This document shows, in pieces, positions 11,758 to 33,518 of a DNA stretch of 64,000 bases; positions within the stretch are counted from its first letter, which is position 1, and every line of letters begins with the position of its first letter. Source of the DNA: Sphingomonas sp. SUN039 (lineage in GTDB: Bacteria > Pseudomonadota > Alphaproteobacteria > Sphingomonadales > Sphingomonadaceae); the NCBI RefSeq assembly GCF_024758725.1, contig NZ_CP096972.1, positions 974,001 to 1,038,000 of the forward strand, given 5' to 3'. The position numbers were made by a program, and so were the translations under genes. The notes beneath the pieces are model-generated. The model saw only the letters and a program-made list of their open reading frames with translations. It searched no databases and was not told where the DNA came from.

Positions 11758-12407
11758 TGGCGTGGGTTTCCGCTCTCGGTTTTGTAGTCGTTGCGCTCGG
11801 CCTGATCTCGCGCTTCGCTAAATTGCCGCGTACCGGACTCGAACTGACGCTGGCCGCTGTCCTCGTCGGGATCGCAGGCTATGTCTGGCAAGGATCGCCA
11901 ACGCAGGCCGGATCGCCGGTGGAGGCGAAGGACAAGGGGTTTGTACCCCCCAATGTCGCGCTTCGCGCGTCGCGCGCTGCAACCGCCAACAATTACGGCG
12001 ATGCCGCCAAGGTTGCCGAATTCGCCGATACGCTCGACCGGATGGGACTGACCCGCGAAGGGGTGATCGCGGTCAAGACGGCAATGCGGAAAGACCCGGA
12101 CAATGTCGAACTCTGGGTGGCGCTGGGGAACACGCTCGTCGCGCACGGGGGCGGCACTCTGTCGCCTGCAGCCGAATTCGCCTTTCAGCGTGGCGCGCAA
12201 TTGTCCCCCGAACATCCGGGGCCCCCGTTCTTCATGGGACTGGCGCTCGCGAATGCCGGACGGGCCGAAGATGCGGGGCAGGTGTGGCGCGGTTTGCTCG
12301 CCCGCACGCCGAAGGATGCGCCGTGGCGTGCCGACCTCGAGGCGCGGTTGACCGCCATCGGCGGCATGCCCGAACCACAGGCACCGGAAGCCAAATTAGG
12401 CAATTGA
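11757..12407 (+). CDS. ccmI: CcmI/CycH-like TPR protein
   Basis: This 216-residue protein has two N-terminal hydrophobic segments (about 1-20 and 27-45) and a soluble part with TPR-like repeats (DNVELWVALGNTLVAHGG and PGPPFFMGLALANAGRAEDA). In cytochrome c maturation the CcmI TPR domain holds the apocytochrome tail near CcmF/H. It is shorter than the two-domain CcmI of many alphaproteobacteria. Its last codons (LGN and stop) overlap a palindrome identical in style to the LacI-type operators nearby. Confidence 0.82.
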   Translation: MAWVSALGFVVVALGLISRFAKLPRTGLELTLAAVLVGIAGYVWQGSPTQAGSPVEAKDKGFVPPNVALRASRAATANNYGDAAKVAEFADTLDRMGLTREGVIAVKTAMRKDPDNVELWVALGNTLVAHGGGTLSPAAEFAFQRGAQLSPEHPGPPFFMGLALANAGRAEDAGQVWRGLLARTPKDAPWRADLEARLTAIGGMPEPQAPEAKLGN

Positions 12408-12411
12408 TTGC
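12400..12411. promoter_or_regulatory. LacI-type operator A (upstream of lacI gene)
   Basis: GCAATTGATTGC differs at one base from the perfect palindrome GCAATCGATTGC at 18176-18187. It spans the last codons of ccmI and lies 44 bases before the LacI-type regulator start, so it probably serves autoregulation. The other sites share the sequence RCAATYGATTGC. Confidence 0.7.
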
Positions 12412-12455
12412 ACAAACGCTTGCGGTGCGGCGCTTTTTGCGTCCACATACCGCAA

Positions 12456-13487
12456 ATGAGTCACAGTTCGTCCGACGCGCCGCCCCGACGCATCCGCAAC
12501 ATCGCCGAACTGGCCGAACTGGCGGGAGTATCGCCGGGTACGGTATCGCGCGCACTGAGCGGCGCGGGCCTGATCAGCAGCAAAACCCGCGAGCGTATTC
12601 AGGCGCTAGCCCGCGAGCATGAATTCACGCCCAATGCGATGGCCCGCAACCTGCGCATCCAGCGGACCGGGGCAATCGGCGTTGTCATTCCGCTGGGGCA
12701 TGAGACCGGACAGCATATTTCCGATCCGTTCTTCATGACGATGCTCGGGCATCTGGCGGATGCGCTGACCGAACGCGGTTACGACCTGCTGCTGTCGCGC
12801 GTGATTCCGACCAATGGCGACTGGCTCGACCGCATCGTCGATTCCGGACGGACCGACGGCGTCATCGTCATCGGTCAGTCGGACCAGTCGGCAACGCTCG
12901 ACCGGGTCGCTGCACGCTATCGCCCGCTGGTCGTCTGGGGCGGACGCAGCGAGGGGCAGGTGCATTGCTCGGTCGGGTCCGACAACCGGCGCGGCGGGAT
13001 GCTGGCGACGCAGCACCTGATCGAGCGGGGCTGCAAGCGTATCGCCTTCTTCGGCGATCCGCGCGCGCAGGAAATCGAACAGCGTCTGGCGGGTTGCCGC
13101 GAGGCGATGGCCGCAGCGGGTCTGAGCGATGCGTTGACTGTCTTTCCCGCGCATCTGGTGGCCGAAGACGCCCAGCCCGACATCGCCCGCTTTCTGTCGG
13201 GCAGCGGCGACCGACCGCAGGGGATTGTCGCCGCGTCGGACATCATCGCGATGAGCGCGATCCAGGCGATGGTCGAGCGCGCGATACCCGTCCCCGACGA
13301 AGTCCGCGTCGTGGGCTATGACGATTTGCCCATTGCCCAGCAGACCCTGCCGCGCCTGACCACGATCCGGCAGGATATTGCGGGCGGCGCGGGGCATCTC
13401 GTCGACTTGCTGCTGCGCCGGATTGCGGGCGAGGACACCGACGGCGTGGTGATGGCGCCCGAACTGGTCGTGCGCGGGTCGAGCTAG
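12456..13487 (+). CDS. LacI-family sugar-responsive repressor
   Basis: This 343-residue regulator has the LacI helix-turn-helix near residues 12-40 (NIAELAELAGVSPGTVSRAL) and hinge LARNLR-like segment, then a periplasmic-binding-protein-like sensor domain (GAIGVVIP to the C-terminus). The ATG at 12456 (MSHSSSDAPP) is the best start; a TTG at 12408 would add sixteen residues over the operator. Five palindromic sites of LacI type lie across this locus, in front of genes for sucrose and galactoside use, so it is most likely their repressor. The inducer, perhaps sucrose, raffinose or a product, is inference. Its stop overlaps that of the convergent GH68 gene. Confidence 0.9.
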   Translation: MSHSSSDAPPRRIRNIAELAELAGVSPGTVSRALSGAGLISSKTRERIQALAREHEFTPNAMARNLRIQRTGAIGVVIPLGHETGQHISDPFFMTMLGHLADALTERGYDLLLSRVIPTNGDWLDRIVDSGRTDGVIVIGQSDQSATLDRVAARYRPLVVWGGRSEGQVHCSVGSDNRRGGMLATQHLIERGCKRIAFFGDPRAQEIEQRLAGCREAMAAAGLSDALTVFPAHLVAEDAQPDIARFLSGSGDRPQGIVAASDIIAMSAIQAMVERAIPVPDEVRVVGYDDLPIAQQTLPRLTTIRQDIAGGAGHLVDLLLRRIAGEDTDGVVMAPELVVRGSS

Positions 13488-14626
13488 GGAACGACTCGAG
13501 TTTCGTCGCCGTTGAGCGCCAGCGTGAATACCGGCGCTGGCGTTCCGCCGAATTGCGTCGCCAAGGTCTCGGGATGGCTGTCGCGCGTGCGTCCCTTCAT
13601 GCCCCACAGATCGATAAAGCTCACCACGTCGAGCGATTTCGTGACCAGCCAGCTGTAGCCCTGAAACGGTTCGGCGACCGGGTTGGCGGCGACGAGTCCC
13701 GTCCCGTTGAGCGGCCGGTAAGGCCCGAGAATGTTGTCGGCGACCATGCCGTACAGTCCGTTCGGTCCCGACGGCCCTCCGGGGGCGAAGACATGGCGTT
13801 GGGTCGACCAGAACAGGTAATAACGCCCGTCGCGATGGACGAGATGCGGCCGTTCGAATTCGTTGTTGATGCCGTCACCGGAGATCAACGGCGGGTGTAG
13901 CTGCCACGCGCCATCGACCTTCTCTGCGATACCGATGACGCCATTGTGGCTGTGCGGCGACCGTCCGTCCGATCCAGTGAACAGCATATAGTCGCGACCG
14001 TCGGCAGGATCGCGGAAAAACCCCGGATCGCGGAACCCCTTGATCAGCCCCGGCCCGCCTGCAGTGCGGCAGGTATCGATATAATGGTCGCCGTCGCTGG
14101 TGAAGAGTTGCGCTGGTGGCGACCAGTCGCCGACGCTCACCGCGTCGCCCTCGACCGCAAGCGGTGCGCTTACCGCAAACATCCGCTGCTCGAAACTGAA
14201 CGGATCGCCGCGCCTTCCGGTCGAGGTGAAATACAGCATGAGCAGAGCGCTTGCCGGATCGAATACTGCCGACCCGGCCCATTCGCGCGTCCCCGGGGCA
14301 AAGCCATCGGGCAGGAGATTGCCATGGTCGCGCCAGACTTTGTCCTTTTGCGACATCAGGCGGATCCGCGCGACATCGTGGCGCAGATCCGGATTGGGAT
14401 CGGTCGCGGCCGACAGGATCATCCACAAAGTGCGACCGTCGAACGCGGCGGTCGTCCCGTCGGTGAGGCACACCGGCCACATGTCCCAGAGATCGATACC
14501 GTCGAGGACGCGCGCGGCTTGCGCGGCTCCGATAACCGGGATCTCGGGAAGGGGGAGGGCGTCGATCCGCGCGATGTCCGCAGCGCGCCAGTGCGTTGTC
14601 ACGCCCAAGTCCTGCGCTGCCTGCAA
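13484..14626 (-). CDS. GH68 sucrose-cleaving enzyme (levansucrase/beta-fructofuranosidase type)
   Basis: This protein of about 380 residues has the GH68 catalytic set: nucleophile Asp48 in DLWDMWP, the transition-state stabiliser Asp200 in GFRDPGF, and the acid/base Glu258 in NEFERPHLV. GH68 enzymes cleave sucrose and transfer the fructosyl group to water or to a growing fructan. No signal peptide is visible, so it may act in the cytoplasm as a sucrose hydrolase, although some GH68 enzymes are exported without a classical signal. The start is TTG 14626 or GTG 14602; both have purine-rich sites upstream. Operator B lies 55 bases upstream. Confidence 0.88.
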   Translation of the reverse strand: MQAAQDLGVTTHWRAADIARIDALPLPEIPVIGAAQAARVLDGIDLWDMWPVCLTDGTTAAFDGRTLWMILSAATDPNPDLRHDVARIRLMSQKDKVWRDHGNLLPDGFAPGTREWAGSAVFDPASALLMLYFTSTGRRGDPFSFEQRMFAVSAPLAVEGDAVSVGDWSPPAQLFTSDGDHYIDTCRTAGGPGLIKGFRDPGFFRDPADGRDYMLFTGSDGRSPHSHNGVIGIAEKVDGAWQLHPPLISGDGINNEFERPHLVHRDGRYYLFWSTQRHVFAPGGPSGPNGLYGMVADNILGPYRPLNGTGLVAANPVAEPFQGYSWLVTKSLDVVSFIDLWGMKGRTRDSHPETLATQFGGTPAPVFTLALNGDETRVVP

Positions 14627-14677
14627 CTGCTATCCCCGTCCTGCTAATTGCCCCTCATACGCATAGCTGACAGGATT

Positions 14678-16738
14678 TCAACAATCGATTGCAAAAATCT
14701 GGAATGCCGCAGCGCGCTCCGCTTTCAGGTCGGGCATTGGCAGGCCGCCAGCGATGAGCCAGCTGCCCTCGAACATTGACACGGCACCCTTGGGGAACAG
14801 TCCTTCGACCCGGTAGCACCGCGACGGATCGAGCATCGGTAGGGGCAGGTCCACTGTGTAACGCTGCGTCGCGGGGTCGAGGCGATAAACGAAGAGCAGC
14901 AGCGAACCGGCGTCGCCTTGTGCCTGCCAGTGGATCGAGTCCGGCGCCTGACCCGCCCAGGTCCGCCCGTAGTGCAGCGCTTCGCGCCAGTCCTTGTAGC
15001 GCGATATCCACCCCGCCAGCTTATCGCGCTCGGCAGGGTCGAGGGTGCGCGGGTCCATTTCGACCCCGAGATGACCCGGCATCGCCACCAGCGCGCGGAA
15101 ATCGAGCGATTGCCGCCGCCCCGTCGCATGGGCGGGACTCGCGCCGATATGCGCGCCCATCAGCTCTGGCGGCATGAATTGCAGGAACCCGCGCTGGATG
15201 ACCACACGCGACACCGCGTCGTTGTTGTCGCTGGTCCAGAAGCGGTGCGTGCGGGTCGCAATACCCGCATCGATTCGCCCGCCGCCGCCGGCGCAACTCT
15301 CGATCTCGACATGGGGGAAGGCCGCGCGAACTCGATCCAGCAGCGCGTAAGTGCCGAGCACCTGCTTGCGGTACGAGGATCGCCCGTCGGCTCCGGCAGC
15401 GGGCGCAAGCGCGCGGTTGTGATCCCATTTCAGATAAGAGATCGGCAGATCGGTCAGCAGCACCGATAACGCCTCGAACAGGTAATCTGTCACTTCGGGG
15501 CGCGCCATGTCGAGCACGAGCTGGTTCCGAGCCGTTGGCTGCTCGCGACCGGCGATCTGCAACGCCCAATCGGGGTGCGCGCGGTACAGCTCGCTGTCGG
15601 GATTGACCATTTCGGGTTCGACCCACAGCCCGAATTCCATACCGAGCGCCGTCACATGATCGGCGAGCGGTTTTAGCCCCTGCGGGTATTTCAGCAGATT
15701 GACCGTCCAGTCGCCGAGCGAGGAGGTGTCGTCGTTGCGCCCCCTGAACCACCCATCGTCGAGGACGAAGCGTTCGATGCCGACTGCCGCTGCCGCATCG
15801 GCGAGCGATTTCAAGTCGTCGGGATTGTGATTGAAATACAAGGCTTCCCAGGTGTTCAGATGCACCGGGCGCGGGCGCATTTTCCCGCCCGGCCAGTCCA
15901 TCCGCGCGCGCACCGCAGTATGGAAATTCTGCGCGACGCCGTTTGTGCCTTCGGGCGAGAAGGTCGCCAGCACGTCGGGGCTGTTCAGCGTCTCGCCCGG
16001 GGCAAGTCGCACTTCACCCGGTGCAAGCCACTCGCCGATCTGCCACTGCCGTCGCCCATCGTCGAGCGGCTCTATGATTTGCGCATGATTGCCGCTCCAC
16101 GCGAGCTGTGCCCCCCATGCCGCGCCGCCATCGCCGAGAACGACGGCACCGGGAAAGTCCTCGTGGCTCGTCAGTCCGCGCCGGTTCTCGCGCCGCCACA
16201 TCGAACCGCCCAGCGTGTCTTCGCACTCGACAAACTCGTTATTGTGCCGCCCGCCCCAAGACCGGACGCTGCGGGCCAAGGGGGGCAGGGGCAGGCACCC
16301 TGCCGCCAGCCATTGCACGTCGAGAGATGCGTCTCCCGTGTTCGCTAACGCACTCGAGATCGTTAAAACGTCGGTGGCGGGGTCGAGTACCAGCTTAATA
16401 GCGACCTCGATACGCGCAACGGCGTCGGACAGCTTTAGTCGGACCTCGCCCGTACCGGTCCGCTCGACGGTGCACCCGGTAAACTCCTGTGCAAAATCGA
16501 AGCCTTCGCGGTGCGCAAGCAGCGCGCTTTGCCCGAACCAGCCGATGCCGAAGGTCGGGAAAACCGACAGCGGCATATCATGATCGAGCGAGAAGGAGGG
16601 CAGGGGCCGCACCAGCGGGTCCATCTCGACCCTATCGGCCAACCGCGCGCCCCAGTGCCGCCACAGCAACGTGTTGCCCGAACGCTCGAGCACCAGCGAG
16701 GTCGCACGGCCATGGAGAACGATGAAGCGGTCGGACAT
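14678..16738 (-). CDS. GH36 alpha-galactosidase
   Basis: This 686-residue enzyme has an N-terminal beta-sandwich, a central TIM barrel and a C-terminal beta domain. The nucleophile is Asp439 in YLKWDHNR and the acid/base Asp504 in RFWTSDNND; VLDDGWF (325-331) and ESCAGGGGR are further GH36 markers. It should release galactose from raffinose-type sugars or melibiose. It has no signal peptide, so the substrate must enter the cell first. It starts one base after the stop of the sugar symporter gene, so the two form one operon. Its last codons (FAIDC, stop) contain operator B for the next gene. Confidence 0.95.
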   Translation of the reverse strand: MSDRFIVLHGRATSLVLERSGNTLLWRHWGARLADRVEMDPLVRPLPSFSLDHDMPLSVFPTFGIGWFGQSALLAHREGFDFAQEFTGCTVERTGTGEVRLKLSDAVARIEVAIKLVLDPATDVLTISSALANTGDASLDVQWLAAGCLPLPPLARSVRSWGGRHNNEFVECEDTLGGSMWRRENRRGLTSHEDFPGAVVLGDGGAAWGAQLAWSGNHAQIIEPLDDGRRQWQIGEWLAPGEVRLAPGETLNSPDVLATFSPEGTNGVAQNFHTAVRARMDWPGGKMRPRPVHLNTWEALYFNHNPDDLKSLADAAAAVGIERFVLDDGWFRGRNDDTSSLGDWTVNLLKYPQGLKPLADHVTALGMEFGLWVEPEMVNPDSELYRAHPDWALQIAGREQPTARNQLVLDMARPEVTDYLFEALSVLLTDLPISYLKWDHNRALAPAAGADGRSSYRKQVLGTYALLDRVRAAFPHVEIESCAGGGGRIDAGIATRTHRFWTSDNNDAVSRVVIQRGFLQFMPPELMGAHIGASPAHATGRRQSLDFRALVAMPGHLGVEMDPRTLDPAERDKLAGWISRYKDWREALHYGRTWAGQAPDSIHWQAQGDAGSLLLFVYRLDPATQRYTVDLPLPMLDPSRCYRVEGLFPKGAVSMFEGSWLIAGGLPMPDLKAERAAAFQIFAIDC
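14681..14692. promoter_or_regulatory. LacI-type operator B (upstream of GH68 gene)
   Basis: ACAATCGATTGC lies 55 bases upstream of the GH68 start and overlaps the final codons of the alpha-galactosidase gene. It matches the shared palindrome at 11 of 12 positions. It implies that the GH68 gene has its own repressible promoter besides any read-through from upstream. Confidence 0.75.
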
Positions 16739-16739
16739 G

Positions 16740-18083
16740 CTACCCCAGTTCGCTGTCCTTGACGCGCATCACCGCCAATGCGGCGCACAGCAACAGCACC
16801 CCCGCCAATGTCAGAACATTGCGCGCATCGCCACCCAGCAACGGCCCGTAGTAAAACGGCAGGGTCGCGGCGTTGAGCAGCATGGGCACGACGATCATCA
16901 TGTTGAATATACCCATGTAAACCCCCGTCCGCCGCGGCGGAATGCAACTGGCGAGCATCACATAAGGCGTTCCCATGATGCTGCCCCAGGCAATGCCGAC
17001 GCCGATTGCCGCACCGAACAACCAGGCCTTGTCCTGGATCATCGGGATCAGCGCCATGCCGATGCCGCCGCAAACGAGCGCGATCGCATGCGTCCGGCGT
17101 GGGCCGATTTTTCGAATGATCGGCACCATCGCCAGCGCCGAGGCAAAGGCGATGAAATTGTAGAACGCCGCCATTTCGCCATTGGTCAGCACCGCCGAAC
17201 GGAACCCGTCCGACACAGGGTCGCTGGTGCCATAGACCGACCGGCTGATCGAATAAGTGACATAGGTCCAGTAGCTGCCGAAGGCATACCATTGGAACAG
17301 CATCATGATGCCGAGCTTCTTCATCGGTGCCGGCATCTCGCGCATCGCCTCGAAGATTTCGGCGAAGGTCGAACCCGCCGATTTCGGCATGGCGGCGATT
17401 TCGGCGCGCTGTTCGGGCGTCAGCGGCAGTTCGGGTACGCGGATCACCGACCACAGGATCGTCGACAGCGACAGGACTGCGCCGATCATGAAGACGACGT
17501 GCACGGTATAGGGGATATTGTGCGCGTCGACTGCATCCTTGTTCATGCCGAACAGCCCGACGAGCAATGATGGCGTCCCGAGTGCGAGGCATTGCGCGAT
17601 GCCGGTGAACGCACTCTGGGTCAGGAATCCGGCGTTGTGCTGTTCGGGATTGAGCCGGTCGCTGACATAGGCGCGATAGGGCTCCATCGTGATGTTGTTG
17701 CCCGCGTCGAGCAGCCACAACAGGCTCGCCGCCATCAACAGGCTCGATGAAAACGGCATGACAAGCAGGCCGAGGCTGCACATGACGGCCCCGACGAGGA
17801 AATAAGGGGTACGGCGACCCCATTTGCTGTCGGTGCGGTCGCTCATCGCCCCGATGATCGGCTGGATAATCAGGCCGGTCATCGGACCCGCAAGCTGGAG
17901 CAACGGCAGCGCCGCTTCGTTCGCGCCGAGATAGCTGTAGATCGGTCCCATATTGCCCTGTTGCAGGCCGAACGAGAACTGCAGGCCGAGGAAGCCGAGA
18001 TTCATCTGCACGATCCGCCAGAGCGACAGATGCGGTTTTTGGGCGGCGCCGCTGGGCGCGATGCTCATGGTTGCACTGGTCAC
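16740..18083 (-). CDS. SUT-like sugar/proton symporter (GPH/MFS)
   Basis: This inner-membrane carrier has about twelve membrane segments over 447 residues. FSFGLQQGNMGPIYSYLGA and GPMTGLIIQPIIGAMSDRT resemble the first loops of plant sucrose transporters and bacterial sucrose or maltose carriers of this family, and WGRRTPY is the MFS loop motif. It likely imports sucrose or raffinose-type sugar with protons. I prefer the GTG start at 18083 because AGGGAGG lies six bases upstream; ATG 18068 is the alternative. The gene leads an operon with the alpha-galactosidase and is divergent from the TonB-dependent receptor, with two operators between. Confidence 0.9.
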   Translation of the reverse strand: MTSATMSIAPSGAAQKPHLSLWRIVQMNLGFLGLQFSFGLQQGNMGPIYSYLGANEAALPLLQLAGPMTGLIIQPIIGAMSDRTDSKWGRRTPYFLVGAVMCSLGLLVMPFSSSLLMAASLLWLLDAGNNITMEPYRAYVSDRLNPEQHNAGFLTQSAFTGIAQCLALGTPSLLVGLFGMNKDAVDAHNIPYTVHVVFMIGAVLSLSTILWSVIRVPELPLTPEQRAEIAAMPKSAGSTFAEIFEAMREMPAPMKKLGIMMLFQWYAFGSYWTYVTYSISRSVYGTSDPVSDGFRSAVLTNGEMAAFYNFIAFASALAMVPIIRKIGPRRTHAIALVCGGIGMALIPMIQDKAWLFGAAIGVGIAWGSIMGTPYVMLASCIPPRRTGVYMGIFNMMIVVPMLLNAATLPFYYGPLLGGDARNVLTLAGVLLLCAALAVMRVKDSELG

Positions 18084-18152
18084 GACGATCCTCCCTGGCC
18101 CTTTATGCAAGGCTTCTGGATTAGGGACGTAACAGGCGGACGGCGCAATGCA

Positions 18153-18164
18153 ACAATCGATTGC
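18153..18164. promoter_or_regulatory. LacI-type operator C (divergent transporter/receptor region)
   Basis: ACAATCGATTGC lies in the 172-base gap between the divergent symporter and TonB receptor genes. It is centred 23 bp, about two helical turns, from operator D, so one repressor tetramer or two dimers could occupy the same face of the DNA and shut both promoters. Confidence 0.8.
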
Positions 18165-18175
18165 AGATTCATGTT

Positions 18176-18187
18176 GCAATCGATTGC
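18176..18187. promoter_or_regulatory. LacI-type operator D (perfect palindrome)
   Basis: GCAATCGATTGC is the only perfect 12-base palindrome of the five sites and is extended by TT on the left. The central CG is typical of LacI-family operators. It lies about 70 bases upstream of the TonB receptor ATG. Confidence 0.82.
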
Positions 18188-18255
18188 TAGACGTGCGACT
18201 CAGGATGCGGACTTGCGTCAAGCAAGCATGCTCAATGTATATCCGGGGAGGATTT

Positions 18256-20763
18256 ATGAAGAATTCGGTTCGCCAAAGCGCTGCTTCTTTGGGCGCGATC
18301 GCGGTCATGATGGCGGTTTCCGCCCCGGCGTTTGCCCAAACCCCGGCTGCACCTGCTGCATCCGCAGAGCCGGGCCTCGACGAAATCGTTGTTACCGCCT
18401 CGGGTCGCGATAAGTCGCGTCTGCAAAGCGCGGTTGCGGTCACCAGCGTCGATGCGGCGACGATTGCGAACTTCAAGCCAGTGTCGGAATCCGAAATCTA
18501 CCGCTTGATCCCCGGCATTCAGGCTGCCGGTACAGCGGGTCCGGGCGGCAACTCGAACATCGCTGTGCGCGGCCTTCCGGTCGCAACCGGCGGCTCGCCG
18601 TTTGTCCAACTGCAGGAGGACGGCCTCCCCACCGTCCTGTTCGGCGACATCCAGTTCGGCAACAACGACTATTTCACGCGCTACGATGCCAGCGTCGAGC
18701 GTCTCGAATCGGTGCGCGGCGGCGGGGCGACGACCTATGCGTCGCAGGCGCCGGGCGCGATCATCAACTATATCAGCAATACCGGCGAGAAAGCGGGCGG
18801 GTTCTTCGGGATCAACCAGGGCCTCGATTTCCGCGAGGCGCGGGTCGATTTCCGCTATGGTGCACCCATCGGTGAAAACACGCGGTTCCACATCGGCGGC
18901 TTTTACAAGGTAGGTAACGGCCCGCTGAACAATTTCCGGGTCAGCAACAGCATCCAGATCAAGGCGAACCTCACGCAGGAATTCGGCGACGGCAAGGGCT
19001 ATGTCCGCCTGCTCGCCAAATTCGCCAACACCAAGGATCCGAACTACACCGGCGCGCCGGCGCTGGCGACGCGGAACGGCAACACCGTCAGCAACATCAC
19101 GCCATTCGCCGGGTTCGACGGGCGCAGCCAGAACAATTATTCAGTCTACAACACGACCGGGCTGTTTCTCAACCGCGCGGGCACGGCACTGGAGCGCCGC
19201 GACATCGATGGCATCACCACCAAGCAGTTCTCGATCGGCGCGCAGTTCCATTACGAATTCGGCGACAATTTCACCGTCGATAACAACTTCCGCTGGAGCG
19301 ACATCAGCGGCGCGTTCGCGGCGCCGTTCCTCAACCTGACGCGGACCACGGGCATCATCGGTTCGACCGTGAACGGCGGCGTCGTGGCCTCGCTGCGCTA
19401 TGCAGCGGGTCCGCGCGCCGGACAGGTCTACACCGGCACCTATGTCGACAATAACGTCAACGTGCGGACCAACATCCGCGATGCGGGTTCGATCGCCAAC
19501 GACCTAGCGCTGTCGGGCAAGTTCGATGCGGGCTTTGCCAAGGTCACCGCGCGCGCTGGCCTGTTCGTGATGAGGCAGAACATCGGGATGGACTGGCACG
19601 TCAACCAGTCGACCCGCGAAGTCAGCGGCGACAATCCGGCGCAGCTCGACCTTTACACGGCGGCGGGCGCGCGGCTGACCAACGAAGGCATCTCGGGCTA
19701 CAACAACAACTGGGGCACGTGCTGCGCACGCGATTACGATCTGAGCTACACCAACACCGCGCCATTCCTGTCGCTCGATCTCGACGGCGAAGCTTTTGCG
19801 CTCGACGGCAGTGTCCGCTTCGAGAACGTGAAGGCCAAGGGCGGCGGCACGCAAGGCGGCACGACGATCACGGTGAGTTCGGGTGGCGTGAACCTGCCCG
19901 CGCTGCTCAGCAACAGCGTCCGCGAGGTGGTCGATTATTCGCGCAGCTACACCAGCTGGACCGCGGGTGCGCTGTGGAAGGCGAATGCTAACACCAGCAT
20001 CTTCATCCGTGCGTCGAAGGGCGGACGTTTCAACGGCGACCGTCAGACTTTCGGCGGCAAGTTCACGACGACCGGCGCGCTGTGCACCAGTGCCCAGGCA
20101 CGGGCCGCGACCAACGGTTGCACGGCCGATGGTGTCACCCCCTCGGTCGATTTTGTGAACCAGTATGAGATCGGGATAAAGAACCGTGGCAACATCGGAA
20201 CCGGGCGTTATTCGGTCGAATTCTCGCTGCTGAAGGCCGATTTCAAGCAGAGCACGTTCGAACTGTCGGCCACGCGCTGCGGCGGTGCGGCGGGCGGGTG
20301 CATCATCGACTCGAAGTATCGCTCGACGGGTGCGGAGTTCTTCGGAACCTTGTCGTTCGGCGCTTTCTCGCTGGTCGCCAACGCCACCTATTCGGACTCG
20401 CAACAGCTCGACGGCACGACCTATCGCCGCGCCTCGTATCTGCCGAGCCTGACCTATACGGTGTCGACCAACTATGACATCGGCGATATGGTGACTTTGG
20501 GCCTTGCCGCCACCGGCCAGTCGAGCGTGCGCGACGATCCGGGCAATGTCTATCCGGGCGGAATCATCGTGAATTCGACGATCTCGGTGCGGCCGGTCGA
20601 ACATCTGGAAGTCGGGTTGCAGGCGTACAACCTGTTCAACAAGCTCGATTTCCGCGGCAACGGCAGCAATGTCGCCGATGTGACCGGGGCGAATTCGGTC
20701 GTGCTGACGGGCACGCCGGTTGTCGGCCAGACGTTCCTCGGCACGCTGAAATACAGCTTCTGA
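18256..20763 (+). CDS. TonB-dependent outer-membrane receptor, probable sugar importer
   Basis: This 835-residue protein has a signal peptide cleaved after AFA (about residue 27), a stretch DEIVVTASGR typical of the start of the plug or TonB box region, a plug domain (IPGIQAAGTAG, NIAVRGLP, ESVRGGG) and a beta barrel ending in a terminal phenylalanine (LGTLKYSF). Such receptors import nutrients across the outer membrane with energy from TonB. Its operators and neighbours indicate a sucrose or raffinose-type sugar rather than a siderophore. GGGGAGG precedes the ATG at 18256. A strong terminator follows the gene. Confidence 0.93.
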   Translation: MKNSVRQSAASLGAIAVMMAVSAPAFAQTPAAPAASAEPGLDEIVVTASGRDKSRLQSAVAVTSVDAATIANFKPVSESEIYRLIPGIQAAGTAGPGGNSNIAVRGLPVATGGSPFVQLQEDGLPTVLFGDIQFGNNDYFTRYDASVERLESVRGGGATTYASQAPGAIINYISNTGEKAGGFFGINQGLDFREARVDFRYGAPIGENTRFHIGGFYKVGNGPLNNFRVSNSIQIKANLTQEFGDGKGYVRLLAKFANTKDPNYTGAPALATRNGNTVSNITPFAGFDGRSQNNYSVYNTTGLFLNRAGTALERRDIDGITTKQFSIGAQFHYEFGDNFTVDNNFRWSDISGAFAAPFLNLTRTTGIIGSTVNGGVVASLRYAAGPRAGQVYTGTYVDNNVNVRTNIRDAGSIANDLALSGKFDAGFAKVTARAGLFVMRQNIGMDWHVNQSTREVSGDNPAQLDLYTAAGARLTNEGISGYNNNWGTCCARDYDLSYTNTAPFLSLDLDGEAFALDGSVRFENVKAKGGGTQGGTTITVSSGGVNLPALLSNSVREVVDYSRSYTSWTAGALWKANANTSIFIRASKGGRFNGDRQTFGGKFTTTGALCTSAQARAATNGCTADGVTPSVDFVNQYEIGIKNRGNIGTGRYSVEFSLLKADFKQSTFELSATRCGGAAGGCIIDSKYRSTGAEFFGTLSFGAFSLVANATYSDSQQLDGTTYRRASYLPSLTYTVSTNYDIGDMVTLGLAATGQSSVRDDPGNVYPGGIIVNSTISVRPVEHLEVGLQAYNLFNKLDFRGNGSNVADVTGANSVVLTGTPVVGQTFLGTLKYSF

Positions 20764-20793
20764 GTTTAATCCATCGGGTCGCGCCGGTTAGGG

Positions 20794-20825
20794 AGGGGAG
20801 CGGTCATCGACCGCTCCCCTTTTTC
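20794..20825 (+). terminator. Rho-independent terminator after TonB receptor
   Basis: A perfect 12-bp stem (20794-20805 with 20809-20820) with a three-base loop is followed by a run of T. It lies 30 bases after the TonB receptor stop and should end or reduce transcription before the TPR/oxygenase gene. Confidence 0.88.
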
Positions 20826-20859
20826 CGTTCAAAGCGCGGAAGATGGAGCGGGGGAGGCA

Positions 20860-22317
20860 ATGACCGGCATTGCGGCAGCACGACAGGCGATGCAGGCGGG
20901 GCGCGCCGACCTCGCCGTGCCGATGCTTGACGCGCTGCACCGTGACCGGCCCAGCGACATCGATATTGCGCGGCTTCTAGGCTTCGCGTTGCGGCAGGAG
21001 CAGCGACTGGTCGAGGCCGAGTCCGTGTTTGCGGCGGCGACCGGAACCTCCGATCCCGGATGCAGTTTCGGACTGGCCCAAACGCGCTACGAGCTGGGCC
21101 TTCCGTCGGCGACATTGTTCGAGCAAGCTGGTCGCCTCGATCCAGCCAACCCCGATATCGTGAAGAACCGCGCGGCAGCCATGGCGGCAGAGGGCGATAC
21201 GGCAGGTGCAGAGCGCCTGCTGGGAACCGCGCTGGCGCAGCACCCGGCTTGGCTCGACGGCCACAAGGGGCTGGCGACCTTGCGCTGGACTCGCGGCGAC
21301 CAGACGCGCTTTGTCGACAGCTACGCGACGGCATGCCGCGCGCAGCCGGAGAAGGCCGCGCTGTGGCTTGCGTGGTTTGCGGCGGTTACGCAGACGCGTG
21401 ACTGGGCAGCGGCGGGCGCAATCCTCGACCAGGCCGAGCAACATCTGGGTACGACAGCGGGTATCGCTGCCAGTCGTTTTTTTCTCGCCAGCGAGTCGGG
21501 CGACACCGCAACTGCCGACGCACTATTCGCCGCAACCGGCAACATAACAGGCGATGCGACCAACCTGACCCGCATCCGCTACCTGCTGAGGCGCGGGAGA
21601 TTTGCCGAGGCGCAGGATCTGGCGTTGCCGCTGACCCGAACCACATCAGCGACCCTGTTCTGGCCGTATCTCTCGCTGATCTGGCGACTGACCGGAGACG
21701 CGCGCCACGAATGGCTCGACCGGCCCGAAACTTCGATCAAATCCGTCGATGTCGATCTTACGGCGAGCGAGTACATCGAACTCGCCGAGGTGCTGCGCGG
21801 GCTGCACGACATGGCGCGGCCCTATGTCGAACAGTCGGTGCGCGGGGGCACCCAGACCGACCGTTCGGTCATGCTGCGGCACGAACCGATCCTGCAAAGG
21901 ACGCGCGCGGCGTGGATCGACGCCATCCGGGGCTATGTCGCGGACCTGCCGCCGCTCGAGGAAGGCCACCCGCTGCTCGGCACCCCGCGCACCCAATTGC
22001 TGATCGAGGGCAGCTGGTCGGTACGACTGCTGAGACAGGGGCATAATGTGCCGCACACCCATCCGATGGGCTGGCTGAGTACGGCGTTCTACATTGCGCT
22101 GCCCGACACTGCCGCGATGGGGCCGCCGCCAGCCGGACATATCGCGTTCGGCACGCCGCCTGCCGATCTCGGCCTCGACCTGAAGCCGTATCGCACTATT
22201 GTCCCGCGCGTCGGGCAATCGGCAGTGTTCCCCTCGACGATGTGGCACAGCACTTTGCCGTTCGATGACGGCGAGCGGCTGGTGCTGGCGCTCGATGTTC
22301 GCCGTCCGGCGTATTGA
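20860..22317 (+). CDS. TPR protein with C-terminal 2OG-Fe(II) oxygenase domain
   Basis: This 485-residue protein has two parts. Residues 1 to about 300 form alpha-helical TPR-like repeats, and the last hundred residues look like a 2-oxoglutarate/Fe(II) oxygenase: His399 and His401 in PHTHPMGW, His463 in STMWHSTLPF and an arginine near 473 (DDGERLVL) for 2-oxoglutarate. It has no signal peptide. Genes of this kind often sit beside TonB receptors and halogenase-type genes in sphingomonads and Caulobacter relatives; that is my recollection. It follows the receptor after a terminator, so it may be transcribed by read-through or a weak promoter. The substrate is unknown. Confidence 0.72.
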   Translation: MTGIAAARQAMQAGRADLAVPMLDALHRDRPSDIDIARLLGFALRQEQRLVEAESVFAAATGTSDPGCSFGLAQTRYELGLPSATLFEQAGRLDPANPDIVKNRAAAMAAEGDTAGAERLLGTALAQHPAWLDGHKGLATLRWTRGDQTRFVDSYATACRAQPEKAALWLAWFAAVTQTRDWAAAGAILDQAEQHLGTTAGIAASRFFLASESGDTATADALFAATGNITGDATNLTRIRYLLRRGRFAEAQDLALPLTRTTSATLFWPYLSLIWRLTGDARHEWLDRPETSIKSVDVDLTASEYIELAEVLRGLHDMARPYVEQSVRGGTQTDRSVMLRHEPILQRTRAAWIDAIRGYVADLPPLEEGHPLLGTPRTQLLIEGSWSVRLLRQGHNVPHTHPMGWLSTAFYIALPDTAAMGPPPAGHIAFGTPPADLGLDLKPYRTIVPRVGQSAVFPSTMWHSTLPFDDGERLVLALDVRRPAY

Positions 22318-22331
22318 GTGATGTCCGACTT

Positions 22332-22415
22332 CCCTGAGCTTGTCGAAGGGCTTTTCTTCTTTCTCCAAGCATGAATGCAAAGAAGTGGGGCTTCGACAAG
22401 CTCAGCCAAGTCGGC
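22332..22415. repeat. Copies of sphingomonad CTTCGACAAGCTCAG repeat
   Basis: CTGAGCTTGTCGAAG (22334-22348) and its inverse CTTCGACAAGCTCAG (22391-22405) flank a 42-base gap and could pair. The right-hand copy continues into CCAAGTCGG, as do the copies at 28805 and 33446. It lies between the oxygenase and halogenase-type genes and may act as a hairpin terminator or a REP-like element. Confidence 0.75.
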
Positions 22416-22441
22416 AGGGGGAGAGCGCTATTGACTGCGCC

Positions 22442-22453
22442 ACAATCGATTGC
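22442..22453. promoter_or_regulatory. LacI-type operator E (upstream of halogenase-type gene)
   Basis: ACAATCGATTGC lies 12 bases before the ATG of the flavin halogenase-type gene. It matches the shared palindrome at 11 of 12 positions. A repressor bound here would block transcription or the start region directly, so the halogenase-type gene appears to belong to the sugar regulon. Confidence 0.78.
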
Positions 22454-22465
22454 GATGCCAGCCCT

Positions 22466-23974
22466 ATGAAGCAGACTAACCCCCGTGCGATCCGCTCTAT
22501 CGTCATCGTCGGCGGCGGCACTGCGGGCTGGATGACGGCAGCGGCGCTGGCCAATGCGTTGAAGGCGCACTGTACCGTCACGCTGATCGAAAGCGACGAA
22601 ATCGGCACTGTCGGCGTCGGCGAGGCGACGATCCCGCCGATCCGCACCTTCAACGCGACGCTCGGCATCGACGAGAACGAGTTCGTCCGCGCGACGCAGG
22701 GTTCGTTCAAACTGGGCATCGAGTTCGTCGATTGGGGGCGGCGCGACCACCGCTATTTCCACCCCTTCGGCACCTATGGCCGCGATTTCGACATGGTGCC
22801 ACTGCACCAATACTGGCTCGACGCGCAGCGCAAAGGCGAGGCACCGCCGCTCGACGATCTGTGCATGGCGTGGGCTGCGGCAAGTCGCGGCAAGTTCGCA
22901 CAACCGTCTGCGGACCCGCGCAGCGTCGCGTCCACCTTCGACTATGCCTATCATTTCGACGCCGGGCTCTATGCACGTTTCCTGCGGACCTATGCCGAGG
23001 CGCGGGGCGTCGTGCGGATCGAGGGCAAGATCGCCGATTACGAGCAAACCGCCGAAACCGGGTTCATCCGCTCGGTCACGCTGGAGGACGGGCGCGGGTT
23101 TGCCGGCGACCTGTTCATCGATTGCTCGGGCTTTCGCGGGCTGCTGATCGAGGGCGCGCTGGAGACGGGCTATCAGGACTGGACGCACTGGCTGCCCTGC
23201 GACCGCGCGCTGGCGGTGCCGTGCGAACGCGCGAGCGAGTTCACCCCCTACACCCGCTCGACCGCGCGCGAGGCGGGCTGGCAATGGCGCATCCCGCTGC
23301 AACACCGCACTGGCAATGGCTATGTCTATTGCAGCAAGTTCATCGACGAGGCGGCGGCGGCCGAAAAACTGCTCGCCAATCTCGACGGCAAGGCGCTCGC
23401 CGATCCGAAGCCGCTGCGCTTCGTCACCGGGCGGCGGAACCTGTTCTGGAACAAGAATGTCGTCGCCATCGGCCTGTCGGGCGGGTTCATGGAGCCGCTC
23501 GAATCGACCAGCATCCATTTGATCCAGGCCGGGATTGCCAAGCTGCTCGCGCTGTTCCCCGACCGCGACTTCGATCCATTGGTAACCGACGAATACAACC
23601 GCCTCGGCATCGCCGAGTTCGAGCGCATCCGCGACTTTATCATCCTGCACTACAAGCTGACGACGCGCACCGACACCGAGCTATGGCGCTATTGCGGCGC
23701 GATGGACGTGCCCGACAGCGTGACCTGGAAGATCGACCATTTCCGCCGCTACGGCCGCTTGCTGGCGCGCGAAGCCGATCTGTTCGGCCCGCCGAGCTGG
23801 TTGGCGGTGCATGTCGGGCAGGGGAATATGCCGGAGGCCACTGACCCGCTGCTGGCGCATCGGGGACAGGACAGTGCGGTGTTTCTTCGCAAGCTCGCCG
23901 ATGCGCTGGCGCGGGCAGGGGAAGGTATGCCGACACATGCGGGGTATATCGAGGCGAATTGCCGGGCGGGATGA
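22466..23974 (+). CDS. Flavin-dependent tryptophan-halogenase-family protein
   Basis: This 502-residue FAD enzyme has the GGGTAGW dinucleotide motif (16-22), the halogenase hallmark WQWRIP (272-277), the active-site lysine Lys82 in SFKLGIEF and Glu346 in EPLESTSI, equivalent to Lys79 and Glu346 of PrnA. All residues needed for hypohalite-type chemistry are therefore present. Family members halogenate tryptophan, indoles or phenols, but the many copies found next to TonB receptors have no proven natural substrate. The ATG at 22466 lies just after operator E, which ties it to the sucrose/raffinose genes. It may act on an aromatic sugar conjugate or do something else; that is speculation. Confidence 0.9.
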
Positions 23975-28804: not shown

Positions 28805-28876
28805 GGCTTCGACAAGCTCAGCCAAGTCGGCGGGAGAGGCAGTCCTCCACCCGACTTGGCTGAGCTTGTCGAAGCC
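28805..28876. repeat. Perfect 26-bp inverted repeat of the sphingomonad element
   Basis: Arms at 28805-28830 and 28851-28876 are perfect reverse complements around a 20-base loop; each contains CTTCGACAAGCTCAG. It lies between holB and metG and could form a long hairpin that ends holB transcription. Confidence 0.85.
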
Positions 28877-33445: not shown

Positions 33446-33518
33446 GGCTTCGACAAGCTCAGCCAAGTCGGTTTGGGAACAATGCTTTCCACCCGACTTG
33501 GCTGAGCCTGTCGAAGCC
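33446..33518. repeat. Inverted repeat of the sphingomonad element, terminator-like
   Basis: Arms 33446-33471 and 33493-33518 are 26-base reverse complements with one mismatch, the left arm being identical to that at 28805-28830. A CTCTTTTT run follows the right arm, so it probably ends mazG transcription. Confidence 0.85.

Follow-up and report, generated by a model that had tools for sequence, protein, structure and literature searches.

The closest described relative of the system considered here is the sux carbohydrate utilization (CUT) locus of Xanthomonas campestris. As given in excerpts of PMC1790865, this locus comprises suxR, suxC and suxAB, is induced by sucrose, and shows raised expression in a suxR mutant; its type of major facilitator superfamily (MFS) gene is conserved in Sphingomonas SKA58 and Erythrobacter, and the gene of its amylosucrase, SuxB, is well conserved only in Caulobacter. 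More generally, LacI regulons, as summarized in excerpts of PMC4052901, mostly employ even palindromes with a central CG, are frequently autoregulated and have sugar genes as targets, and more than 75% of LacI-family sites lie 140-30 bp before start codons. The locus reported in this paper belongs to Sphingomonas sp. SUN039 (assembly GCF_024758725.1) and lies in a stretch of 64,000 nucleotides (contig NZ_CP096972.1, positions 974,001 to 1,038,000 of the forward strand), which is called the window and numbered from its first letter. As in the sux locus (PMC1790865, excerpts), a LacI-family regulator, an MFS permease, a TonB-dependent receptor and a sucrose enzyme occur together. The two loci differ in their enzymes, the Xanthomonas locus having an amylosucrase, whereas the window has enzymes of glycoside hydrolase families 68 (GH68) and 36 (GH36), an oxygenase and a halogenase. 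Because the amylosucrase is absent and GH68 and GH36 are found instead, the window locus is called sux-like and not sux. The best explanation of the whole is very probably a local LacI repressor acting through CAATCGATTG-type operators on a sucrose/raffinose-family regulon, as judged from sequence comparison.

The motif was sought by pattern match in four forms: RCAATYGATTGC, a pattern whose R and Y letters were chosen so that the copy at 12400 is included; GCAATCGATTGC, a perfect palindrome of 12 bp; CAATCGATTG, the strict core of 10 bp; and the wider form CAAWCGWTTG. In the window, RCAATYGATTGC gives 6 strand-matches, which represent 5 places, at 12400, 14681, 18153, 18176 and 22442, and dinucleotide-shuffled windows (n=100) contain a mean of 0.15 matches and a maximum of 2. 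These five coordinates had been proposed in a sequence-only reading of the window, and the pattern search found all of them correct. The same reading saw no copy elsewhere in the window, which holds even with one mismatch: GCAATCGATTGC at 0 or 1 mismatch has no further place there, and with 2 mismatches it has two, 39620 and 53537. Across the genome, a single contig of 3,528,835 bases, the motif is not randomly spread, with 5 of the 8 exact places of RCAATYGATTGC inside the sugar locus of ~10 kb and none for the reversed control pattern. The strict core CAATCGATTG is found at 5 places, 4 of them in the locus, and CAAWCGWTTG at 11 places, again with 4 in the locus (reversed control, 3).

The perfect palindrome GCAATCGATTGC, a predicted operator at 18176..18187, is situated ~74 bp before the receptor gene and 23 bp from the other member of a tandem pair, a predicted operator of sequence ACAATCGATTGC at 18153..18164, ~90 bp before the MFS start; neither is assigned to a strand. 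ACAATCGATTGC is also predicted as an operator on the + strand at 14681..14692, ~84 bp before the GH68 start, where it coincides with the final four codons of GH36, and at 22442..22453 (+), its center ~18 bp before the halogenase ATG. The remaining site, GCAATTGATTGC at 12400..12411 (+), is a candidate weak lacI operator, centered ~50 bp before the lacI ATG and overlapping the stop codon of the upstream tetratricopeptide repeat (TPR) gene, the last of a ccm block. A palindrome with central CG, as first described, applies to 14681, 18153, 18176 and 22442, which is 4 of the 5 locus sites; the copy at 12400, CAATTGATTG, differs from the others in its central TG. Likewise, the copies do lie upstream of one gene set as claimed, with the GH36 and oxygenase genes left unnamed in that description. 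No exact site stands directly before GH36 (14678-16738) or the oxygenase gene (20860-22317), and both genes presumably belong to the two operons discussed below.

Conservation of the motif was examined around relatives of the LacI protein. A scan of a collection of 84,980 species' genomes returned 125 relatives, of which the best 80 were retained; omission of L090-L092, from distant phyla, left 77 loci, and omission of six near-duplicates left 71 dereplicated loci. In the placement counts, gene starts are homology projections, and five off-locus intervals (LacI 1, MFS 2, halogenase 2) were omitted. CAAWCGWTTG is present at 119 places in 60 of the 71 loci, and six control patterns at 0-15 places in 0-14 loci. 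The commonest 12-bp palindrome is GCAATCGATTGC itself, in 18 of 71 loci, with the next best in 13. Within 300 bp upstream, the wider form precedes the MFS gene in 27/33 cases, the receptor in 27/31, LacI in 31/70, the ROK kinase in 15/35, GH68 in 11/39 and the halogenase in 7/23. Intervals of equal size inside the genes contain none (LacI 0/70, GH68 0/39, MFS 0/33, receptor 0/31, halogenase 0/23, ROK 0/35, GH36 0/6, oxygenase 0/8). Since 5 of the 7 halogenase sites in relatives are shared with a divergent receptor, these sites say little on the halogenase alone.

The spacing is conserved as well. Among relatives with a site, it lies 51-92 bp upstream of LacI in 26/31, 79-112 bp upstream of GH68 in 8/11, and 51-119 bp upstream of the MFS gene in the 27 with a site; the distances in the window (LacI 50, GH68 84, MFS 90, receptor 74 bp) are inside the relatives' ranges or at most 1 base off. 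Tandem sites 21-24 bp apart, resembling the 23-bp pair of the window, occur in 9 of 71 loci. Inspection of recognition-helix residues by eye gave no clear difference between CAAT- and CAAA-type operators. What the comparison establishes is the sites, their clustering, the gene families and the conserved placement of sites before genes. A LacI-controlled sucrose or raffinose regulon, as the sequence-only reading had predicted, is thus supported by gene content and by site placement in relatives, with zero in the control intervals. The search around relatives of the LacI bears out the motif before the same gene kinds; for the 12400 copy and for the placement of 22442, the nearest relatives provide no backing. 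As a separate observation, in the Sphingomonas-type loci L028, L035, L042-L044, L046, L048, L051, L054, L055, L058 and L068 LacI and a ROK kinase homologue have a site in common, and GH68 was not found in them. One of these records, L055 (RPSH01000002.1), is titled Bacillus sp. 2B10; its LacI is nested in a Sphingomonas clade, and the record is probably mislabeled or contaminated.

A second sample was obtained through GH36. Of 199 genomes of the family, 48 matched in the GH36 search, own genome included, and regions were fetched around the best 18 of the 47 other matches (67% to 47% identical). A LacI relative, 52-75% identical, is present in 5 of the 18 regions, and each of these 5 has GH68 as well, with two to five sites. 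The 12 regions that lack both LacI and MFS homologues are all without a site, and on one short truncated contig, which carries only GH36 and MFS, there is a single site, before MFS. Since the sites track LacI and MFS, not GH36, across the 18 regions, the motif follows the locus of the repressor and not the alpha-galactosidase.

The families of the gene products agree with this picture, and the gene set first proposed (LacI regulator, GH68 enzyme, transporter and receptor, halogenase) is borne out by Pfam. The LacI-family repressor (12456..13487, + strand, 343 aa) contains a helix-turn-helix (HTH) and a sugar-binding-type domain (PF00356, 1.3e-13; PF13377, 1.3e-32), and its solved relatives are LacI-family repressors; a C-terminal tetramerization extension was not seen when the sequence was inspected by eye. 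The GH68 sucrose-acting enzyme (13484..14602, - strand, ~372 aa with an assumed GTG start; PF02435, 4.6e-57) has levansucrases as solved relatives, with 7bj4 the best in the PDB, and its domain holds the motifs WDMWP, FRDP and FERPH together with an Asp/Asp/Glu triad read from the sequence. The GH36 alpha-galactosidase (14678..16738, - strand, 686 aa; PF02065, 1.8e-123) has a melibiase domain with KWDHNR and TSDNNDAVSR motifs and the catalytic aspartates, and its solved relatives are the alpha-galactosidases AgaB (4fnq), AgaA and AgaSK (2yfn). No signal peptide was seen by eye in either enzyme, and GH68 is probably an intracellular sucrase for that reason. The MFS sugar permease (16740..18068, - strand; PF07690, 2.9e-24; PF13347, 1.4e-10) ends where GH36 begins, and because of this abutment MFS-GH36-GH68 probably constitute one operon. 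On the + strand follow the TonB-dependent receptor (18256..20763; PF07715, 9.1e-11), whose N terminus looks signal-like by eye, and a TPR protein with a 2-oxoglutarate/Fe(II) oxygenase domain (20860..22317; PF13759, 1.2e-14), whose gene, next after the receptor on the same strand, is probably co-transcribed with it. The last gene, at 22466..23974 (+), encodes a BrvH-like enzyme of the flavin-dependent (tryptophan) halogenase family (PF04820, 9.3e-196) with GGGTAGWM and WQWRIP motifs; its solved relatives are flavin-dependent halogenases, 6frl being the best. The roles of all these motifs, as of the GH68 triad residues and the GH36 catalytic aspartates, are those that we assume for them.

Between the oxygenase and halogenase genes lies an inverted repeat hairpin resembling repetitive extragenic palindromes (REP-like; 22334..22405, no strand assigned); for the stretch 22318-22440 the folding energy is -54.5 kcal/mol (z -4.0). 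Such a hairpin would fit a halogenase that is controlled separately. The window has three inverted pairs of GCTTCGACAAGCTCAG-like words, at 22334-22405, 28806-28875 and 33447-33517, of which the first is the strong hairpin.

As to binding, the sign of control, the inducer, the direction of transport and the location of the enzymes, the following scheme is predicted. The LacI repressor (12456-13487) would bind CAATCGATTG-type operators, and at the tandem pair 18153/18176 it would shut two divergent units, a leftward one of MFS-GH36-GH68 and a rightward one of receptor and oxygenase, perhaps with the halogenase. GH68 and the halogenase would each have a further operator, and lacI itself a weaker one. 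Sucrose or a sugar of the raffinose family would enter through the TonB-dependent receptor and then the MFS permease, GH36 would strip galactose caps in the cytoplasm, and GH68 would then cleave the sucrose core, with a sucrose-like inducer freeing the repressor from DNA.

Several observations weigh against this scheme. Eleven of the 71 LacI loci lack any CAAWCGWTTG site, and among 10-bp palindromes CAATCGATTG is only fourth by loci (29/71), behind three GC-rich ones. An own site within 300 bp upstream is rare for GH36 (1/6) and absent for the oxygenase (0/8) in the LacI loci. A sigma-70-like promoter was not found at the operators, and 3 were found elsewhere against 2.1 expected. The own genome has no match to galT, and galactose would need another route. 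Additionally, two of the five sites are open to doubt. The central-TG form at 12400 has no counterpart before lacI in relatives, and the distance of 18 bp between the 22442 site and the halogenase start codon is short for the set, with no halogenase upstream site in the nearest loci (0/7 among L013-L021). It could be, then, that 12400 and 22442 reflect chance or decay and that only 14681, 18153 and 18176 are used, a possibility to be taken seriously even if it is the lesser one: no other place in the 64 kb comes within one mismatch, both sites closely precede genes of the set, and L063 has a comparable site 22 bp before its own halogenase. Accordingly graded, 12400 and 22442 are the weakest of the five, and for the predicted operators 14681, 18153 and 18176 the support is the best that computation can give.

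The identity of the sugar was weighed through the gene content of relatives. With the same repressor and sites, the locus might serve alpha-galactosides such as raffinose and melibiose first; the inducer would then be galactose or melibiose, and GH68 would be accessory. In favor of this, GH36 abuts MFS in the own genome, and several relatives have galT next to GH36, as they have the ROK kinase next to GH68. In L013-L022, the ten loci whose LacI is most identical, however, GH68 is found in 10/10 and GH36 in 4/10, so that GH68 stands without GH36 in six, one of them on a contig cut off at 14.7 kb, and it is sucrose, not melibiose, that looks constant. On the LacI tree, moreover, the GH36 label is scattered: its 6 changes for 6 rows equal or exceed those of 500 of 500 shuffles, which is no better than shuffling. 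This tree, flagged for long branches, has 68 rows, the window and 67 of the 77 loci; the six near-duplicates are not included, nor are L015, L027, L048 and L068, whose LacI was missed by a simple caller of open reading frames (ORFs). Gains and losses of GH36 are inseparable on it, and since support is weak (80/79) for the clade in which the LacI of the window falls, nothing is drawn from its exact position. A primarily alpha-galactoside regulon is therefore considered unlikely. Of the "sucrose or raffinose-type" regulon originally suggested, the type stands, with sucrose its constant part and GH36 patchy: sucrose would be the core and the raffinose-family sugars the extension of the own genome, with the inducer likewise predicted. 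The own genome has one ROK kinase and two DgoK kinases, and in view of the two DgoK and the missing galT match, galactose may pass through the De Ley-Doudoroff route, of which DgoK alone was looked up.

Another reading of GH68, that it makes levan or fructo-oligosaccharides and does not feed the cell, draws on a family that includes levansucrases, one of which is the best solved relative. No signal peptide was seen by eye, though, the uptake genes are in the same locus, and a ROK kinase lies beside GH68 in several relatives. Export in the absence of a classical signal occurs in some members of the family, and levan synthesis is rated as improbable, slightly more so than a regulon for alpha-galactosides. 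Far less credible still is the proposal that the sites serve a different LacI of the own genome or a global sugar regulator, the neighboring LacI being a passenger. The genome does offer 19 LacI-like candidates at first look, yet the motif travels with the LacI lineage of the locus, is absent from 12/12 GH36 regions that have no LacI and no MFS homologue, and in its strict core form occurs only once in the genome outside the locus. A local repressor of a sucrose-centered regulon remains the preferred explanation.

Outside the locus, RCAATYGATTGC occurs at 1,038,578, 2,719,060 and 3,031,924. The first is flanked by a VWA/CoxE-type gene and the terminus of a NamZ gene, and a likely target start was not seen; the third lies between a phosphoenolpyruvate (PEP)-utilizing, ptsP-like gene and a RodZ-type gene. 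The second (L010 7061-7072) is the sole strict CAATCGATTG beyond the locus; it falls within the terminal part of a GH13 gene, and a GH97 gene follows after ~50 bp, a geometry that is right for an operator. Among 7 genomes of the genus, GH97 at E 1e-60 is found only in the own genome and in G004, which has neither the LacI nor the site. With this single comparison, chance and membership are indistinguishable, and 2,719,060 is possibly a remote member of the regulon or a chance match. CAATCGTTTG-type places number six elsewhere in the genome, and in three cases (494,956; 3,009,344; 3,244,277) an ORF begins less than 100 bp further on; two of these three ORFs were scanned, one having no family and one being an SH3/glycine-zipper protein. 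All six were treated, without proof, as outside the regulon.

The sugar genes form an island, at 12400-23974 of the window, between the ccm block (CcmE, CcmF, redoxin, CcmH, TPR) and a block of SLT-RlpA/DPBB-S11 peptidase-thymidylate kinase-DnaX-type delta' genes. No LacI match at 1e-60 exists in six genus relatives, two of which are just 83-84% complete. In G001 and G005 both blocks are present ~23 kb apart, and 0/7 of the sugar-locus proteins are found between them at E 1e-12. This spacing led to rejection of a simple insertion of the island into a clean empty site. The sugar island is variable.

A different combination of genes is seen in one part of the LacI tree, where L024, L025, L026, L029 and L057 (Sphingobium SYK-6) form a clade with support 100/100. 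In these loci and in L027, which is outside the tree, GH68 is accompanied by esterase genes: alpha/beta hydrolases in 6/6 and the tannase/feruloyl-esterase family in L024, L029 and L057. All six (L024, L025, L026, L027, L029, L057) also have a homologue of one and the same MFS protein and a TonB-dependent receptor, and sites precede the esterase genes in L024, L027 and L029. This suggests that the esterase-bearing loci may be a regulon for the use of acylated sucrose. Put more broadly, and with a confidence that stops a little short of even, one LacI lineage with CAATCGATTG could control sucrose-core regulons, mostly in sphingomonads, with swapped uncapping modules: GH36 for galactosyl-sucroses in the window and five scattered tree relatives, and esterases in one separate clade for acylated, perhaps phenylpropanoid, sucroses, the BrvH-like halogenase being a sugar-induced partner of the receptor. 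The analysis thus offers a precise predicted operator and gene list for sucrose/raffinose use, places a BrvH-like halogenase family and a TPR/2-oxoglutarate oxygenase in a putatively sugar-controlled locus, and points to a related regulon with possible use of acylated plant sucroses.

Compared with known systems, the window shares with the local LacI regulons of RegPrecise the LacI HTH and sugar-binding domain, the even palindrome with central CG (4/5) and conserved sites (PMC4052901, excerpts). The main text of that paper, figures and supplement apart, has 0 occurrences of 'sphingomon', and a sphingomonad or raffinose version of such a regulon was not found in searches of open-licence papers, the RegPrecise tables lying outside this scope. 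The indole halogenases BrvH, whose structure is 6frl (PMC7336383), and Xcc4156 belong to the same family as the window halogenase; the excerpts of PMC5945002 and PMC7336383 state their native substrates to be unknown, and the window gene has a predicted operator of sugar type before it. Introducing no new mechanism, the locus clearly illustrates a type of gene control already known: a sux-like CUT locus with a local LacI regulator.

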